Shown here piece after piece: positions 16,016 through 21,432 of a stretch of DNA of 34,347 bases. The stretch lies in NCBI GenBank assembly GCA_025359245.1, contig JANYGW010000060.1, forward strand, positions 1 through 34,347, given 5' to 3'. The first letter of the stretch is position 1; each line of letters starts with the position of its first letter. Under the pieces are notes generated by a model, which was given only the letters and a program-made list of their open reading frames with translations, made no database searches and was not told the DNA's origin. The translations under genes and the position numbers were made by a program. This DNA comes from Massilia sp. (GTDB lineage Bacteria; Pseudomonadota; Gammaproteobacteria; Burkholderiales; Burkholderiaceae_D).

Positions 16016-16241
16016 TTTACCCCGGCCGTTTTGCCCCATAAGCAACGCAAACCGCGGCTGGCGCCGGTTTGTCGGCGCGCGCATGCAGAGCCCACTTGCA
16101 GATTTCCCGGCAACCCGCTTATCATTGGCCGCGCAGCGGATTGTTACAATTCGTGTATCAGAACGACAAAATTTCGATGCTTGCGGCCGAGCATGTATGA
16201 TGCGCGTGCCGAACCACCTAATTAGTACGACGAGAAACCAT
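16016..16241 (+). promoter_or_regulatory. smg-topB intergenic region with probable topB promoter
   Basis: This 226-bp gap has an AAACCG/CGGTTT inverted repeat (16049-16054, 16065-16070), perhaps a weak terminator after smg. A promoter-like pair follows (TTGCAG 16096-16101, 18 bp, TATCAT 16120-16125). A frame continues open upstream of the topB start but lacks any domain, so the region is read as non-coding. Confidence 0.3.
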
Positions 16242-18932
16242 ATGACAAAAACCCTCATCATCGCCGAGAAGCCCTCCGTCGCGAACGATATCGCCAAGAC
16301 GCTGGGCGGCTTCACCAAGCACGATGAGTACTTCGAATCGGACGAGTATGTCTTGTCGTCGGCAGTCGGCCACCTGCTCGAGATCGCGGTGCCGGAAGAG
16401 CACGACGTCAAGCGCGGCAAATGGAGCTTCGCGCACCTGCCGATGATCCCGCCGTACTTCGCACTCAACCCGATCGCCAAGACCGAGGCGCGCCTGAAGG
16501 TGCTCAATCGCCTGATCAAGCGCAAGGACGTCACCGCCCTGATCAACGCCTGCGATGCCGGGCGCGAGGGCGAACTGATTTTCCGTTTGATCCAGCAGAA
16601 CGCCAAGGCCAAGCAGCCGGTCCAGCGCCTGTGGCTGCAGTCGATGACGCCGGGCGCGATCCGCGAAGGCTTCACCAAGCTGCGCAGCGACGAAGAGATG
16701 CTGCCGCTGGCCGACGCGGCGCGCTGCCGCTCGGAAGCGGACTGGCTGATCGGCATCAACGGCACCCGCGCGATGACAGCCTTCAACTCGAAAGAGGGCG
16801 GCTTCTACCTGACCACCGTGGGCCGCGTGCAGACGCCGACCCTGTCGATCGTGGTCGAACGCGAAGAGAAGATCAAGCGCTTCGTGTCGCGCGACTTCTG
16901 GGAAGTGCGCGCCGAATTCGTGTGCGCCGCCGGCTTCTACGAAGGGCGCTGGCTGGACCAGTCGTTCAAGAAGGACGAGAACGATCCCGAGCGCCGTCCC
17001 GAGCGCTTGTGGAGCAAGGCCGCGGCCGACACCATCGCCATGGCCTGCAAGGGCCGCCAGGGCGCCGTCACCGAGGAATCGAAGCCGACCACCTCGATGG
17101 CGCCGGCGCTGTTCGACCTGACGTCGCTGCAGCGCGAGGCCAACGGCCGCTTCGGCTTCTCGGCCAAGAACACGCTCGGCCTGGCCCAGGCGCTGTACGA
17201 AAAGCACAAGGTATTGACGTATCCGCGTACCGATTCGCGCCACCTGCCGGAAGACTACATCGACACCGTCAAGGAGACGATGGTCGGCCTGGCCGAGAAC
17301 AACAACTATCACCAGTTCGCCAAGCAGATCACCGACAAGGGCTGGGTCAAGCCGAACAAGAAAATCTTCGACAACACCAAGATCTCGGATCACTTCGCGA
17401 TCATCCCGACCACGCTGGCGCCGAAGAATTTGTCGGAGCCGGAGCAGAAACTGTACGACCTGGTGACGCGCCGCTTCATGGCGGTGTTCTTCCCGCCGGC
17501 CGAGTTCCAGGTCACCACGCGCTTTACCGAAGTGTCGGGCCACCAGTTCAAGACCGAAGGCAAGGTCATGACCAATCCGGGCTGGCTGGCGATCTACGGC
17601 AAGGAAGCGTCGACCGATAGCGACAAGGACGACAACACCGGCGGCAACCTGGTCCCGGTGGCCAAGGGCGAGAAGGTGCATACCGAATCGGTCACGGCCA
17701 ACGGCCTGGTCACCAAGCCGCCTGCGCGCTACACCGAGGCGACGCTGCTGTCGGCGATGGAAGGCGCGGGCAAGCTGATCGACGACGACGAGCTGCGCGA
17801 CGCGATGGCCGGCAAGGGCCTGGGCACGCCAGCGACGCGCGCCGCCATCATCGAGGGCTTGCTGGGCGAGCGCTACCTGCTGCGCGAAGGGCGCGAACTG
17901 ATGCCGACCGCGAAAGCATCGCAGCTGATGACGCTGCTGCGCGGCCTGGGCGTGAACGAACTGACCGCGCCCGAACTGACGGGCGAATGGGAATACAAGC
18001 TGTCGCAGATGGAAAAGGGCAAAATCTCGCGCGAGGAATTCATGCGCGAAATCGCCCAGATGACCCAGATCATCGTCAAGCGCGCCAAGGAATACAACAA
18101 CGACACGATCCCGGGCGATTACGCGACATTGACGACGCCGTGCCCGAATTGCGGCGGCGTGGTCAAGGAAAACTACCGCCGTTTTGCCTGCACCAAGTGC
18201 GAATTCAACATGAGCAAAACGCCGGGCAGCCGCCAGTTCGAGATCGCCGAAGTCGAAGAACTGCTGGAGAAGCGCACCATCGGGCCGATGCAGGGCTTCC
18301 GCTCGAAGATGGGGCGTCCGTTCGCGGCCATCCTGCGCATCGTGCGCGATGAAGAGATCAAGAACTGCAAGCTGGAGTTCGACTTCGGCCAGAACGACGA
18401 CGATGAAAACGCCGAGGGCGTCGACTTCACCGACCAGACGCCGCTCGGGCCGTGTCCGAAGTGCGCTGGCGGCGTGTTCGAAATGGGCCTGTCGTATGTG
18501 TGCCAGAACAGTGTCGCCAAGCCGAAGACGTGCGATTTCCGCAGCGGCCGTATCATCCTGCAGCAGGAAATCCTGCCCGAGCAGATGGTCAAGCTGCTCA
18601 ACGACGGCAAGACCGACCTGATGCCGGGTTTCGTGTCGCAGCGCACGCGCCGTCCGTTCAAGGCCTTCCTGGTCAAGGGCAAGGACGGCAAGATCAGCTT
18701 CGAGTTCGAAGAGCGCAAGGCCAAGCCGGGCGCCAAGGTCAAGGCCGCGGCGGTAGCCGATCCGGAAGAGGGCGACGAGGCGGCACCAGCCAAGAAAACC
18801 GCTGTGAAGGCGGCCGCCAAGAAGGCGCCGGCCAAAAAGGCGGCCGCCAAGAAGGCGCCGGCCAAGAAAGCGCCAGCGAAAAAAGCCGCCGCAAAAAAAG
18901 CGCCGGCCAAGAAGGCCGCCGCAGCAGAGTAA
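16242..18932 (+). CDS. topB: DNA topoisomerase III with histone H1-like tail
   Basis: An 896-residue type IA topoisomerase. The Toprim domain is at the N-terminus (MTKTLIIAEKPSVANDIAKT; NACDAGREGELIF supplies metal ligands). The catalytic tyrosine is Tyr327 in LTYPRTDSR. Two C-terminal zinc-ribbon modules follow (CPNCGGVV...CTKCEF and CPKCAGG...CQN...C). The last 50 or so residues are an almost pure repeat of AKKAPAKKAAAKKAP type, a lysine/alanine tail like that of histone H1 and absent from E. coli TopB; it probably binds DNA nonspecifically. The start at 16242 is fixed by the family N-terminus. In E. coli the gene near dprA-smg is a topA-like fragment; here a full topB occupies that place. 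Confidence 0.95.
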   Translation: MTKTLIIAEKPSVANDIAKTLGGFTKHDEYFESDEYVLSSAVGHLLEIAVPEEHDVKRGKWSFAHLPMIPPYFALNPIAKTEARLKVLNRLIKRKDVTALINACDAGREGELIFRLIQQNAKAKQPVQRLWLQSMTPGAIREGFTKLRSDEEMLPLADAARCRSEADWLIGINGTRAMTAFNSKEGGFYLTTVGRVQTPTLSIVVEREEKIKRFVSRDFWEVRAEFVCAAGFYEGRWLDQSFKKDENDPERRPERLWSKAAADTIAMACKGRQGAVTEESKPTTSMAPALFDLTSLQREANGRFGFSAKNTLGLAQALYEKHKVLTYPRTDSRHLPEDYIDTVKETMVGLAENNNYHQFAKQITDKGWVKPNKKIFDNTKISDHFAIIPTTLAPKNLSEPEQKLYDLVTRRFMAVFFPPAEFQVTTRFTEVSGHQFKTEGKVMTNPGWLAIYGKEASTDSDKDDNTGGNLVPVAKGEKVHTESVTANGLVTKPPARYTEATLLSAMEGAGKLIDDDELRDAMAGKGLGTPATRAAIIEGLLGERYLLREGRELMPTAKASQLMTLLRGLGVNELTAPELTGEWEYKLSQMEKGKISREEFMREIAQMTQIIVKRAKEYNNDTIPGDYATLTTPCPNCGGVVKENYRRFACTKCEFNMSKTPGSRQFEIAEVEELLEKRTIGPMQGFRSKMGRPFAAILRIVRDEEIKNCKLEFDFGQNDDDENAEGVDFTDQTPLGPCPKCAGGVFEMGLSYVCQNSVAKPKTCDFRSGRIILQQEILPEQMVKLLNDGKTDLMPGFVSQRTRRPFKAFLVKGKDGKISFEFEERKAKPGAKVKAAAVADPEEGDEAAPAKKTAVKAAAKKAPAKKAAAKKAPAKKAPAKKAAAKKAPAKKAAAAE

Positions 18933-18943
18933 TCTGGCCTGCG

Positions 18944-18983
18944 AAAAAAAAGCCGCGAACCTTTGACAGTTCGCGGCTTTTTT
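18944..18983. terminator. Bidirectional Rho-independent terminator
   Basis: A run of A (18944-18951), the arm GCCGCGAAC, an 8-nt loop CTTTGACA, the arm GTTCGCGGC and a run of six T (18978-18983). The stem extends through A-T pairs and works in both directions. It serves topB (plus) and the CoaD-HD gene (minus), whose stop codon overlaps the T-run. Confidence 0.92.
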
Positions 18984-20106
18984 ATCTTAACGCGGCGATT
19001 TCGCGTGCCAGGTTATCGCGCGCCGACGCGCCGTACAGGTCGCGGAAGTAGCTGTCGGCGTACAGGGCGCCAGTGTTGGCCAGGCCGAGGAAATGCGCCA
19101 GCACGGTGCGCCTCCCGGACCGGTAAGCGGCTTCGCCGACGTGACTGTATTCGATGCGCACCGAGCGCGCATAGGTGTCGTAGACGTCGTCGTCCTGGCC
19201 CAGGATCGCCAGGTCGGCGCCCAGCATCACGTCGCGCAGGCGCTGCGCGTGCGCGCCGGGATGGGCGTGTTCGGTGGCCCGGATCAGCGCAGCGGGTTCC
19301 TGCGCGGCCGTGTCGCCGTCCAGCCCGGACGCCAGCCACAGGCGCGCGCTTTGCTCTTCGTTGGACAGGCCGCCCAAGGTCCCGCCGTACACGGCATCAT
19401 GAAACCAGAACGCCTTCTTGAGGACGGCGATATCGTCCGCACTGGCGCCGGTATTGGCAGCCCACACCGCGATTTCGGTCAGGCCGTGCACCAGGTGGTC
19501 GAGATTGTGATACGCGCGGACCGGCGCGCCGTACGCCGTCTCGCCGGTCAGCCGTTCGAACCATGCATCGGCAGCGGCGTGACCGTCCGGCCACAGGCTG
19601 TCCCAGTCCTTGCGCAGCCAGTCGAGTATCCACGCCGCGTAGGCCGGGGCTGGCATGAACTGGCGCGTGCTCCAGTGCCAGCCGACCGGTCCCTGCAAGC
19701 CGCGCACGAAGCTCGAGCTGACCGAGCCGAGGTCGCGCGGCGGCATCACGAACAGCGTCTTGGCGCCGTGCAGGACGTCGACATTGGCTTGCTGGATCAG
19801 GTTCTCGTAGTCGAAGTCGGACGTGTTGCGGATGCCGCGGATCAGGAAATCGATGCCCTGGCGCTTGGCCGCGCGGGCCGTATAGTCGCCGCGCACCAGC
19901 ACCACGCTGACGTTGCTCCAGCCTTTCGCGGCGACGCTGCGTTCGACGATCTGCTTGCGCCGCGCGGCGGAAAATTGCGGCTTCTTGAACGGATTTTCCG
20001 ACAGCAGCACCACCACCTCATCGGCCAGTTCGCGCGCCTCCTGGATGACCCACATGTGGCCGTTGGTGATCGGGTCCAGGGTTCCCGAGAAGGCGATTTT
20101 TTTCAT
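18982..20106 (-). CDS. Phosphopantetheine adenylyltransferase (CoaD-like) fused to an HD-type hydrolase domain
   Basis: A 374-residue two-domain protein. Residues 1-160 are a CoaD-type nucleotidyltransferase, joining 4'-phosphopantetheine and ATP to dephospho-CoA. It keeps GTLDPITNGH (T9-H17), the KKP segment (41-43), LIRGIR (88-93) and SVSSSFVRG (128-136). Residues about 165-374 match the COG4339 family of predicted metal-dependent HD phosphohydrolases: AYHNLDH (H200, H204), FWFHDAVYG (H236-D237), NEEQSA (E250), TEHAHPG (H280) and LGADLAILG (D298). Bacterial CoaD is normally about 160 residues and stands alone. The start overlaps the coaE stop (ATGA), so this and coaE, the next enzyme in CoA synthesis, are translationally coupled. 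It may be the only CoaD or a second copy; the HD substrate is unknown. Confidence 0.88.
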   Translation of the reverse strand: MKKIAFSGTLDPITNGHMWVIQEARELADEVVVLLSENPFKKPQFSAARRKQIVERSVAAKGWSNVSVVLVRGDYTARAAKRQGIDFLIRGIRNTSDFDYENLIQQANVDVLHGAKTLFVMPPRDLGSVSSSFVRGLQGPVGWHWSTRQFMPAPAYAAWILDWLRKDWDSLWPDGHAAADAWFERLTGETAYGAPVRAYHNLDHLVHGLTEIAVWAANTGASADDIAVLKKAFWFHDAVYGGTLGGLSNEEQSARLWLASGLDGDTAAQEPAALIRATEHAHPGAHAQRLRDVMLGADLAILGQDDDVYDTYARSVRIEYSHVGEAAYRSGRRTVLAHFLGLANTGALYADSYFRDLYGASARDNLAREIAALR

Positions 20107-20720
20107 GTGCTGCTCCAGCGTGCCAGGTAAGCGGCGTGCAGTTGCGCGGCGAGCGCAGGGACTTCTGTTGCGGGGCCGTGGTTGACGATGACGTCGTCGG
20201 CCAGCGCCAGATAGGCGGCGCGCGGCGGCTGCATCGCCATGATGCTGGCCGCCTGTTCGCGCGACCAGTCCGGATTGCGCAAGGCGATGCGCGCCAGACG
20301 CACGTCATTGGCGGCGTCGATCACCAGCACGCGCGCGGCGGGAATCTGCTGGTCGGCTGTCAGCGCCGATTCCCAGATCACGTAGACCGCCTTCTGCGCC
20401 TGCGTCCAGCGCTGCGCCTCGGCCAGCACCCACGGGCGCAGGATGGACTTGAGTTCTTCATTGACCCCGGCGTCGAGCGCGAACAGCGTGCGCAAGCTGC
20501 CGCGCGCCAGGCGGCCATCGGGTGTCATCGCCTGCGGGAAGGCCAGCGCAATGGCGTGCGTGGCCGGATGCGCAGGATCCTGGTGGATCGTGCGCGCGAG
20601 CGCATCGGCGTCGATGCAGGGCACGCCCAGCTGCGCGAAAGCGCGCGCGAAGGTCGATTTGCCGCTGCCGATGCCGCCGGTGAGGGCCAGCACCCTGGGT
20701 TTGTCTTGAGGAAGAGTCAT
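20103..20720 (-). CDS. coaE: Dephospho-CoA kinase
   Basis: A 205-residue P-loop kinase catalysing the last step of CoA synthesis, phosphorylation of the ribose 3'-hydroxyl. Walker A is GGIGSGKST (15-23), followed by CIDADALAR in the substrate region and RIALRNPDWSREQA near the lid. The start MTLPQDKPRVLALTGG is chosen from the family N-terminus; a longer frame runs upstream through the operators and into the TetR gene and is rejected. There is no obvious Shine-Dalgarno. In many proteobacteria coaE lies next to pilD or yacG; here it forms a two-gene CoA operon with the CoaD-HD gene, controlled from a region shared with tetR. Confidence 0.93.
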   Translation of the reverse strand: MTLPQDKPRVLALTGGIGSGKSTFARAFAQLGVPCIDADALARTIHQDPAHPATHAIALAFPQAMTPDGRLARGSLRTLFALDAGVNEELKSILRPWVLAEAQRWTQAQKAVYVIWESALTADQQIPAARVLVIDAANDVRLARIALRNPDWSREQAASIMAMQPPRAAYLALADDVIVNHGPATEVPALAAQLHAAYLARWSST

Positions 20721-20814: not shown

Positions 20815-21432
20815 ATGGCCAGGAAGACCAATTCAGAGCAGCGGCGGGCGGAAATCGTGATGGCGCTGCTGGCCACCATGGCCGGGCACGGCTACGAAAA
20901 GGCGACCATCCAGCTGATTGCCAGGGAAGCGGGCCTGGCGCCCGGGCTGCTGCACTACCATTTCAAGACCAAGGCCGAGATATTGCTGGCGCTGGTCAAG
21001 ACGCTGGCGGCCATGTCGCGCCAGCGCTATCTGGCGCTGGCCGACAACGCCGAGGGCGCCACGCAAAAACTGGCCGCGTATATCCATGCGCGGCTCGGCC
21101 TGGGCGAGGGCGCCGACTTGAAGGCGGTCGCCGCGTGGGTCGTGATCGGCGCGGAAGCGGTGCGCCAGCCGGAGGTGCGGGCGGTCTACCAGGATGCGGT
21201 GCGCGAGGAGATGGCGCTGCTGCACGAGCTGTTGTCGGCCTGTCTTGCGGAGCAGCGCAAAAGCACGGCTGCCGTGCCGGCGTTGGCCGCCGCCGTGCTG
21301 GCCATGATGGAAGGCGCATTTCAGCTTGCCAGCGCCGCGCCCGGGGTCCTGCCGCAGGGCTATGCCGCGCAGACGGCGCTGGCGCTGGTCGAACGTTTCA
21401 TCGCCGCCGAAGCTACTTCAGGTCTTCGGTAG
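20815..21432 (+). CDS. TetR/AcrR family transcriptional regulator
   Basis: A 205-residue repressor-type protein. The N-terminal HTH (about 8-55) reads EIVMALLATMAGHGYEKATI...REAGLAPGLLHYHFKTKAEIL, typical of TetR; the rest is the helical ligand-binding and dimer domain, closest in feel to BetI-type C-termini. Start ATG 20815 has AGGGGA 5 nt upstream. It is divergent from coaE, and two 16-bp dyads lie between them, so it probably controls both itself and the coaE-CoaD-HD operon. The ligand is unknown; a CoA thioester or CoA precursor would fit the context but is only a hypothesis. Its 3' end overlaps the convergent neighbour by 20 bp. Confidence 0.9.
   Translation: MARKTNSEQRRAEIVMALLATMAGHGYEKATIQLIAREAGLAPGLLHYHFKTKAEILLALVKTLAAMSRQRYLALADNAEGATQKLAAYIHARLGLGEGADLKAVAAWVVIGAEAVRQPEVRAVYQDAVREEMALLHELLSACLAEQRKSTAAVPALAAAVLAMMEGAFQLASAAPGVLPQGYAAQTALALVERFIAAEATSGLR

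Follow-up and report, generated by a model that had tools for sequence, protein, structure and literature searches.

Why is CoaD, the pantetheine-phosphate adenylyltransferase (PPAT) of coenzyme A (CoA) synthesis, joined to a hydrolase of the HD superfamily in a single polypeptide? The question is raised by a gene in a 34,347-nucleotide stretch of Massilia sp. DNA (GenBank assembly GCA_025359245.1, contig JANYGW010000060.1, positions 1 to 34,347; the whole stretch is called the window below), for which a preliminary description had proposed a CoaD-type adenylyltransferase carrying an HD hydrolase domain. The gene holds both domains in one open reading frame (ORF), and HD domains of the same family are fused to, or lie beside, CoaD or the dephospho-CoA kinase CoaE in viruses and on a plasmid. 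The fusion may be an accessory enzyme with two activities that serves the final steps of CoA synthesis and belongs to a mobile type shared with large phages; the reading favored here, with a probability of roughly 0.55, places the action of the HD half in the CoA metabolism around CoaD and CoaE. The gene and its halves are as follows.

18982..20106, minus strand: CoaD–HD fusion gene, 374 amino acids; open ORF, ATG at 20106-20104, stop codon at 18984-18982
19612..20106, minus strand: predicted PPAT (CoaD) half, residues 1-165; assigned by TIGR01510, fold, tree and residues
18985..19611, minus strand: predicted HD phosphohydrolase half, residues 166-374; assigned by phrog_19425, alignments and fold matches to viral HD proteins

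Two domains in one chain

The CoaD half is a predicted PPAT with its adenylyl-transfer residues intact. Residues 6-139 score 115.5 bits against the NCBIfam model TIGR01510 (pantetheine-phosphate adenylyltransferase; equivalog cut-off 103.3), and the Pfam family CTP_transf_like matches this half at E 1.2e-13. An AlphaFold model of the fusion (m2199aa7dd73c), built on a 31-row alignment, has a predicted local distance difference test score (pLDDT) of 92.9 and a predicted template-modelling score (pTM) of 0.90, an earlier model built on 8 close sequences having had a pLDDT of 64; in a fold search of the PDB, the model matches Escherichia coli CoaD (6b7a) with a template-modelling (TM) score of 0.91 by target length. 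Alignment with the E. coli and Helicobacter pylori enzymes places T9, H17, K41, R90, R93 and S130-S132 of the fusion on PPAT T10, H18, K42, R88, R91 and S128-S130, which agrees with the intact CoaD that the preliminary description had read from T9, H17, K41, R90 and the SSS motif. The roles of these PPAT residues, including the contacts of T10, K42, position 74 and R88, are set out in passages of PMC12784347. Among the cellular fusion rows, the catalytic K42, R88, R91, S128 and S129 (E. coli numbering) occur in 30 of 30; 29 of the 30 also have T10 and H18, and the remaining row is a match without the first 16 positions. The fusion also retains the residues on the phosphate side and the counterpart of Asn106; D97, E101 and N108 are further residues marked in the CoaD half of the window protein, and a GxxGW motif follows the SSS motif.

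For residues 165-374, an HD-type identity and a set of metal-ligand candidates had been proposed. Residues 166-374 alone match no Pfam family even at E 5, and NCBIfam, searched with the whole fusion protein at E 1, gives no match within this half. In these two libraries, the absence of an HD-family match that the preliminary description had set as a refuting outcome is literally what is observed. The HD identity is supported by other evidence: the PHROGs family phrog_19425 ('phosphohydrolase') covers residues 190-371 at E 5.9e-19, the half aligns with stand-alone homologues, and the columns H200, H204, H236, D237, S253, D298, E319 and R332 are invariant in 26 diverse HD members, with E250 present at 90% or more. 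The proposed ligands H200, H204, H236-D237, D298 and E250 are therefore retained as candidates, whereas H280 is absent from the conserved columns of that set. H...HD...D is the mononuclear phosphatase motif of the HD superfamily (passages of PMC8177086). The structure model has no strand beyond residue 120 and consists of helices from residue 143 on, so that its HD half is all-helical, and it matches the predicted viral HD phosphohydrolases A0A8S5UI08 (E 2.0e-4) and A0A8S5RY74 (E 7.6e-4); no solved HD protein is among the best 50 of 972 PDB fold matches, those listed being PPATs only. A match to the Pfam HD model PF01966 does not by itself define the superfamily; the model is matched by 3 of the 26 HD members (best E 2.3e-4) and not by the window domain, and since PHROGs, the motif and the fold agree on HD, the missing match probably reflects a sensitivity limit of that model. 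By sequence profile, the nearest solved relatives, all weak, are YedJ (3gw7, E 0.0017), BH2835 (3dto, E 0.012) and YpgQ (5dqv, E 0.18).

A sequencing join of two separate genes is ruled out, as the two-domain frame is kept in 25 of 145 sampled genomes of the window's family (8 of 44 genera) and at seven loci of named genomes. Fusions with 66-79% identity to that of the window occur in Massilia rubra, M. mucilaginosa, M. aquatica, Undibacterium pigrum, Undibacterium sp. TS12, a Herbaspirillum metagenome-assembled genome and Oxalobacteraceae bacterium CAVE-383, named carriers that all belong to the Oxalobacteraceae. In samples of 399 genomes from the order and 398 from the phylum, which contain few members of the family, only the window's own genome gives a match across both halves.

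The preliminary description had also asked whether such genomes keep another coaD, and 24 of the 25 fusion genomes have a second match. It is CoaD-only in 17, which are all those with the second match among the matches listed; in the other seven it falls outside them, and the sole fusion genome without one is 68% complete. The fusion CoaD is thus an extra PPAT beside a second, where shown canonical, coaD, and the possibility that it is the only or replacement CoaD is rejected. Ratios of nonsynonymous to synonymous substitution (dN/dS) show purifying selection on both halves, stronger on CoaD than on HD: the median is 0.20 for CoaD and 0.44 for HD in 187 non-independent pairs drawn from 30 sequences, in which the HD synonymous differences span 0.03-0.55 per site and the larger dS values are near saturation.

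Recurrent joining of the HD family to CoaD and CoaE

The same partners are found in several arrangements outside the cellular fusions. The 462-kb uncultured phage LR756500.1 has CoaD–HD in one 386-residue ORF (TIGR01510 128.7 bits; phrog_19425 8.4e-29) and carries CoaE (114 bits) elsewhere in the record. The 113-kb virus IMGVR_UViG_3300045115_000211 (G896) has a CoaD–HD of 398 residues (TIGR01510 123.7 bits), followed on the same strand by a CoaB-like gene (PF04127, 102 bits) 5.6 kb downstream and a CoaC-like gene (PF02441, 94.6 bits) 7.3 kb downstream with a PTH2 gene between them; CoaE was not found in this virus record. The order is reversed in IMGVR_UViG_3300035661_000234 (L158), which has HD–CoaD in 396 residues. 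On plasmid 2 of Variovorax sp. SRS16, a CoaE–HD of 405 residues (TIGR00152 65.7 bits; phrog_19425 5.9e-29) overlaps a stand-alone CoaD (154 bits) by 4 nucleotides, and four Variovorax plasmid records, one of them examined in detail, list such a CoaD adjoining a 'dephospho-CoA kinase'. The 169-kb IMGVR_UViG_3300028666_000024 (L134) joins CoaD and CoaE in a 375-residue ORF that overlaps a free HD gene by 11 nucleotides. Three further virus records, L072, L131 and L135, have CoaE and CoaD as neighbors with no HD in the stretch examined; in L135 the CoaD is incomplete. The L072 pair is followed, at 1.2 kb, by a nicotinamide mononucleotide (NMN) adenylyltransferase–Nudix gene that scores 430.6 bits (cut-off 397). 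An order-wide search with the Variovorax CoaE–HD at E 1e-32, made without a positive control, matched 0 of 399 genomes, and a viral scan with the L134 HD as query recovered only L134 itself.

These arrangements do not go back to a single joining. The approximately unbiased (AU) test, applied to a 52-domain HD tree with long branches and poorly resolved deep forks, rejected a common origin for the 25 domains linked to CoaD or CoaE, set against 27 others (p 0.0022). The linked group had been fixed before the tree was seen, and 52 of 63 rows were used, 11 near-copies of the cellular fusion being omitted. As the linked HDs are not one clade, joining to CoaD or CoaE was repeated. Because HD is joined to or lies beside CoaD or CoaE in several non-monophyletic arrangements, its link to CoA is stronger than one fusion allows, and the earlier proposal of a tie between the HD domain and CoA precursors gains support.

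The wider family was sampled by four HD-motif scans of the viral collection, which gave 27 distinct loci, 19 of them confirmed by an HD profile; 2 of these 19 are CoaD fusions. For 9 of the 19, chosen by the author, the whole records, often fragments, hold CoaD in 4, CoaE in 2 and either in 5 of the 9, figures that come with no background rate.

Further observations concern the surroundings of these loci. Around the CoaD–HD gene of G896 (L244 2315-4297 and 15715-18599), an NAD-dependent DNA ligase gene accompanies the CoaB-like, PTH2 and CoaC-like genes, and the CoA-gene set of this virus is larger than any in the passages of the phage literature consulted. Near the Variovorax CoaE–HD/CoaD pair (L061 6787-16477), at a distance of about 4-7 kb, are a DpdB (DGQHR) gene and type I-E CRISPR genes. 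Bacterial contamination probably accounts for some of the phage records with coaD: CAKLQH020000004.1 has rtcB, thiG and rpoH beside the match, and MG065691.1, whose coaD falls in an E. coli-like tree group, has the same appearance. The argument rests on no count of phage records. NZ_CP119142.1, a Neisseria gonorrhoeae record filed as a plasmid, is 2.17 Mb long and probably a chromosome.

Within the window, the fusion is accompanied by a second kinase gene.

20103..20720, minus strand: second predicted dephospho-CoA kinase, CoaE2, about 205 amino acids, upstream of the fusion (PF01121 E 3.3e-33; TIGR00152); 20720 is a chosen start, the longest ORF beginning at 20879
20103..20106, minus strand: ATGA overlap of 4 nucleotides between the coaE2 stop and the fusion start, from the coordinates

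CoaE2 scores 88.7 bits against TIGR00152 (cut-off 65.55). At 81.7% completeness, the window genome also contains a canonical coaD (C196, 185 bits) and a canonical coaE (C113, 156 bits), and CoaE2 is 37% identical to the latter. In addition to these, the coaE2/fusion gene pair brings together a predicted kinase, adenylyltransferase and hydrolase grouped about the two final CoA steps. The ATGA overlap suggests coupled translation, and the 4-nucleotide overlap recurs in both Undibacterium loci. Of the 7 named loci, 5 have a second CoaE ahead of the fusion. With 21 candidates scored per genome at E 1e-10, a second CoaE is found in 4 of the 145 family genomes, each time beside the fusion. The overlapping second coaE and the phage relatives, together with the changed pantetheine-side positions given in the next section, go beyond the preliminary description, which also gave no strand for the fusion gene.

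Elsewhere in the window, a topoisomerase III-like protein (PF01131, PF13342) is encoded at 16083-18932 on the plus strand, with a tail rich in lysine and alanine (AAKKAPAKK). The HC2 histone-like match to this tail, at 15.4 bits, is far under the 40-bit cut-off, and the first ATG of the ORF lies 53 codons upstream of the MTKTLIIAEKPS start.

Changed pantetheine-side positions of CoaD and candidate roles of the HD half

In a tree of 101 CoaD domains, the fusion CoaD groups in a clade (support 99/96) separate from the canonical CoaD that its genome also encodes, and the clade members mostly carry a motif like SSxxVKGLxGPxGW. Other families of the order contribute stand-alone CoaDs to this clade, which further takes in four CoaDs from phages, a Variovorax plasmid CoaD and the LR756500.1 fusion; the CoaD of L158 was too weak for inclusion in the tree. 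In 14 genomes of the order with a stand-alone CoaD of the fusion subtype, two of which have rows in the tree, one PPAT each is found at E 1e-20, at the same locus, so that the fusion subtype seems to be the sole PPAT there. The order families f5, f21, f27, f41 and f51 (L042-L060) seem to use the fusion-subtype PPAT instead of the canonical one, giving two PPAT subtypes in one order.

At E. coli positions 7, 11, 37, 73, 74, 102 and 103, the fusions have F, L, S, Y, T, I and Q, which differ from all 47 reference PPATs; Q at position 104 differs from 46 of the 47, and at position 105 (T, A and one I) 29 of 30 fusion rows differ. S, Y, T and I at positions 37, 73, 74 and 102 are present in 30 of 30 fusions, the references having A/G/T, L/F, L/M/V and M/L, and position 105 is T/A/I in fusions versus M/I/V/L in references. 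Positions 37, 73, 102 and 105 presumably line the pantetheine arm of PPAT. The stem leading to the fusion CoaD carries 2.05 changes per column and is followed by strong constraint. The G896 CoaD, which entered the tree as a partial sequence, is the sister of the cellular fusion CoaD (83/81, with a long-branch warning) and shares L11, T74, A75 and I102 with the window protein; T74 is in no reference nor in any other phage or plasmid row among those listed, and A75, L11 and I102 each occur in at least one other row. The shared residues and the sister position suggest that the G896 and cellular fusions may share ancestry, which the HD tree does not resolve.

On the favored reading, the CoaD half would transfer AMP to a 4'-phosphopantetheine-like substrate, and the HD half would be a metal-dependent phosphohydrolase acting on a metabolite of the same pathway. 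Dephospho-CoA is the product of CoaD and the substrate of CoaE and, besides ATP, the only pathway-specific metabolite common to both. Because HD joins either CoaD or CoaE, dephospho-CoA or CoA would be the likeliest substrate of the HD half, a tentative choice, with hydrolysis of such molecules at the phosphoanhydride or the 3'-phosphate. CoaD and CoaE2 would rebuild, and HD would dismantle, CoA species, and the module would thereby recycle them or set their level. The paired synthesis and removal of an intermediate, or the repair of CoA precursors, that the preliminary description had suggested would likewise be candidate roles. NMN adenylyltransferase–Nudix fusions, proposed to do likewise for nicotinamide adenine dinucleotide (NAD), offer a parallel by analogy.

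Several observations weigh against placing the HD half in the CoaD/CoaE part of the pathway. In the stretch examined, neither CoaD nor CoaE accompanies the other 17 of the 19 viral HDs, six stand-alone plasmid HDs have neither within 4 kb, and the 14 of 145 family genomes that show an HD-only match all lack the fusion; such numbers of stand-alone HDs imply that HD can work without an adjoining CoaD. The neighbors of stand-alone HDs on plasmids and phage records show no visible theme (four records carry no annotation). HD is not tied to CoaD everywhere; the family has been repeatedly recruited to it. A second CoaE was not found in 21 of the 25 fusion genomes at the threshold and candidate number given above, and a conserved operon beyond coaE2 is rejected, as the neighbors of the fusion differ between loci: at three loci, from genera g6 and g40, it is preceded by genes for a DegP-like protease, a response regulator and a sensor kinase, and elsewhere by other genes. 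Some partners score low or group elsewhere. The CoaB- and CoaC-like genes of G896 match the CoaB and CoaC NCBIfam models best, yet under the equivalog cut-offs; the L158 CoaD (59 bits) and the CoaE part of the L134 fusion (38 bits) are under theirs, and the L134 CoaD falls outside the fusion-CoaD clade. The substrate of the CoaD half may not be 4'-phosphopantetheine, given that positions 37, 73, 74, 102 and 103 differ from the 47 references. The weak relatives YedJ, BH2835 and YpgQ include a (d)NTP pyrophosphohydrolase, which makes a plain nucleotide substrate possible for HD, and no known activity for this HD family turned up in any search made.

Damage control is an unlikely alternative, in which HD would dephosphorylate damaged or wrong (oxidised, S-acylated) 4'-phosphopantetheine before CoaD makes dead CoA from it. 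HD is fused to the very enzyme that consumes 4'-phosphopantetheine, and a precedent is eukaryotic PANK4, which reportedly has a 4'-phosphopantetheine phosphatase domain. Monophosphatases are also among HD family members (passages of PMC8177086). Such a role leaves the joining of HD to CoaE unexplained, as CoaE does not handle 4'-phosphopantetheine.

HD could also be a general nucleotide hydrolase, acting on alarmones, dNTPs or defence signals in phage counter-defence, its joining to CoaD or CoaE reflecting accessory-gene clustering in large phages and not one pathway. Jumbo-phage HD hydrolases have been proposed as counter-nucleotide enzymes (passages of PMC7824862), YpgQ cleaves (d)NTPs (passages of PMC8177086), and many members of the HD family stand alone. 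A RelA/SpoT-type HD gene (L134 3464-3982; PF13328 40.4 bits, best family TIGR00691) lies directly before the CoaD–CoaE fusion of L134. Clustering alone, however, hardly accounts for one-chain CoaD fusions in at least three settings (the cellular fusion together with G896, LR756500.1, and the reversed L158) and a CoaE fusion in a fourth, with HDs that are not one clade. A known defence protein is rejected, as 0 families of PADLOC-DB 2.0.0 match the four proteins tested at E 0.001, which also speaks against a counter-defence hydrolase; overall this role is improbable.

It is rather doubtful that the fusion lies off CoA altogether, with the changed pocket adenylylating another phosphate and HD removing the product or a by-product. 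The changes at positions 7, 11, 37, 73, 74 and 102-105, the long stem with strong constraint afterwards and the canonical coaD retained alongside the fusion would fit such a shift, but CoaE2 beside the window fusion and the CoaB- and CoaC-like genes beside its phage sister point to CoA chemistry, and the phosphate side of the pocket, with the Asn106 equivalent, is kept. A bolder version of the CoA reading, decidedly speculative, would have a phage-born mobile CoA-remodelling module domesticated in Oxalobacteraceae: CoaD2, with its altered pocket, and CoaE2 would make a CoA variant or private pool, and HD would destroy ordinary CoA or dephospho-CoA, switching host carrier-protein or acyl chemistry in infection or stress. 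Least probable is carrier-protein recycling, in which HD would free 4'-phosphopantetheine from holo-acyl carrier protein like AcpH, and CoaD (with CoaE) would recapture it as CoA: AcpH, a phosphopantetheinyl hydrolase of the HD family, yields the compound that CoaD uses as substrate (passages of PMC8557913), and the window genome, at its 81.7% completeness, has no AcpH match at E 1e-10, but HD as an AcpH relative is rejected (hhalign against five AcpH sequences gives Prob 0.5 and E 0.13, and PF04336 is unmatched), and released 4'-phosphopantetheine is excreted and not recoverable (passages of PMC8557913).

Relation to known systems

If the HD half does act at the CoaD/CoaE end of CoA synthesis, an uncharacterised HD family of bacteria, plasmids and phages gains a concrete pathway for testing. 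It would also give a handle on the reason for CoA genes in large phages; in one virus, CoaB-, CoaC- and CoaD-type genes lie on a single strand. In snow viromes, coaD and coaE are reported to rank with the auxiliary genes of highest abundance, their purpose not being known (passages of PMC11097641), and phage coaD is noted in a passage of PMC8093824. CoA-synthesis genes are thus likewise viral in those systems; the passages of PMC11097641 consulted mention no HD partner or fusion. In the one open-access library searched, no paper was found on a PPAT–HD fusion or a bifunctional PPAT–phosphohydrolase, nor on COG4339, the label that the preliminary description had given to the HD domain; subscription literature was not covered. 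In the part of the jumbo-phage survey PMC7824862 consulted, 'pantetheine', 'coenzyme', 'coaD' and 'coaE' occur 0 times, also inside words.

The stand-alone HDs of phrog_19425 have the same domain and ligands as the fusion, with 31-38% identity in the 20 of 123 plasmid matches listed, but they are unfused, and their plasmid annotations read 'NMDAR2C subunit', 'metal-dependent phosphohydrolase' or hypothetical. AcpH (PF04336) is also an HD hydrolase and releases the CoaD substrate (passages of PMC8557913), yet has no profile similarity to the fusion. With bacterial PPAT (CoaD, TIGR01510), the fusion shares a score above the cut-off, the fold and the adenylyl-transfer residues, whereas it has an extra 209-residue C-terminal hydrolase and altered pantetheine-side positions and is an additional copy beside the canonical coaD, from which it stands apart in the tree.

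The closest parallel in architecture is found in phage NAD systems, where an adenylyltransferase is fused to a Nudix hydrolase or a P-loop kinase (passages of PMC7824862). As in the NMN adenylyltransferase–Nudix proteins, a HIGH-type adenylyltransferase and a phosphohydrolase share one chain in the CoaD–HD fusion; the cofactor is CoA and not NAD, the hydrolase is HD and not Nudix, and the likeness is an analogy between hydrolases that are not homologous. The principle of fusing an adenylyltransferase to a hydrolase or a kinase is thereby extended from NAD to CoA: the fusion type itself is known from NAD with Nudix, and what is new here is an adenylyltransferase–hydrolase fusion in the CoA pathway with HD.

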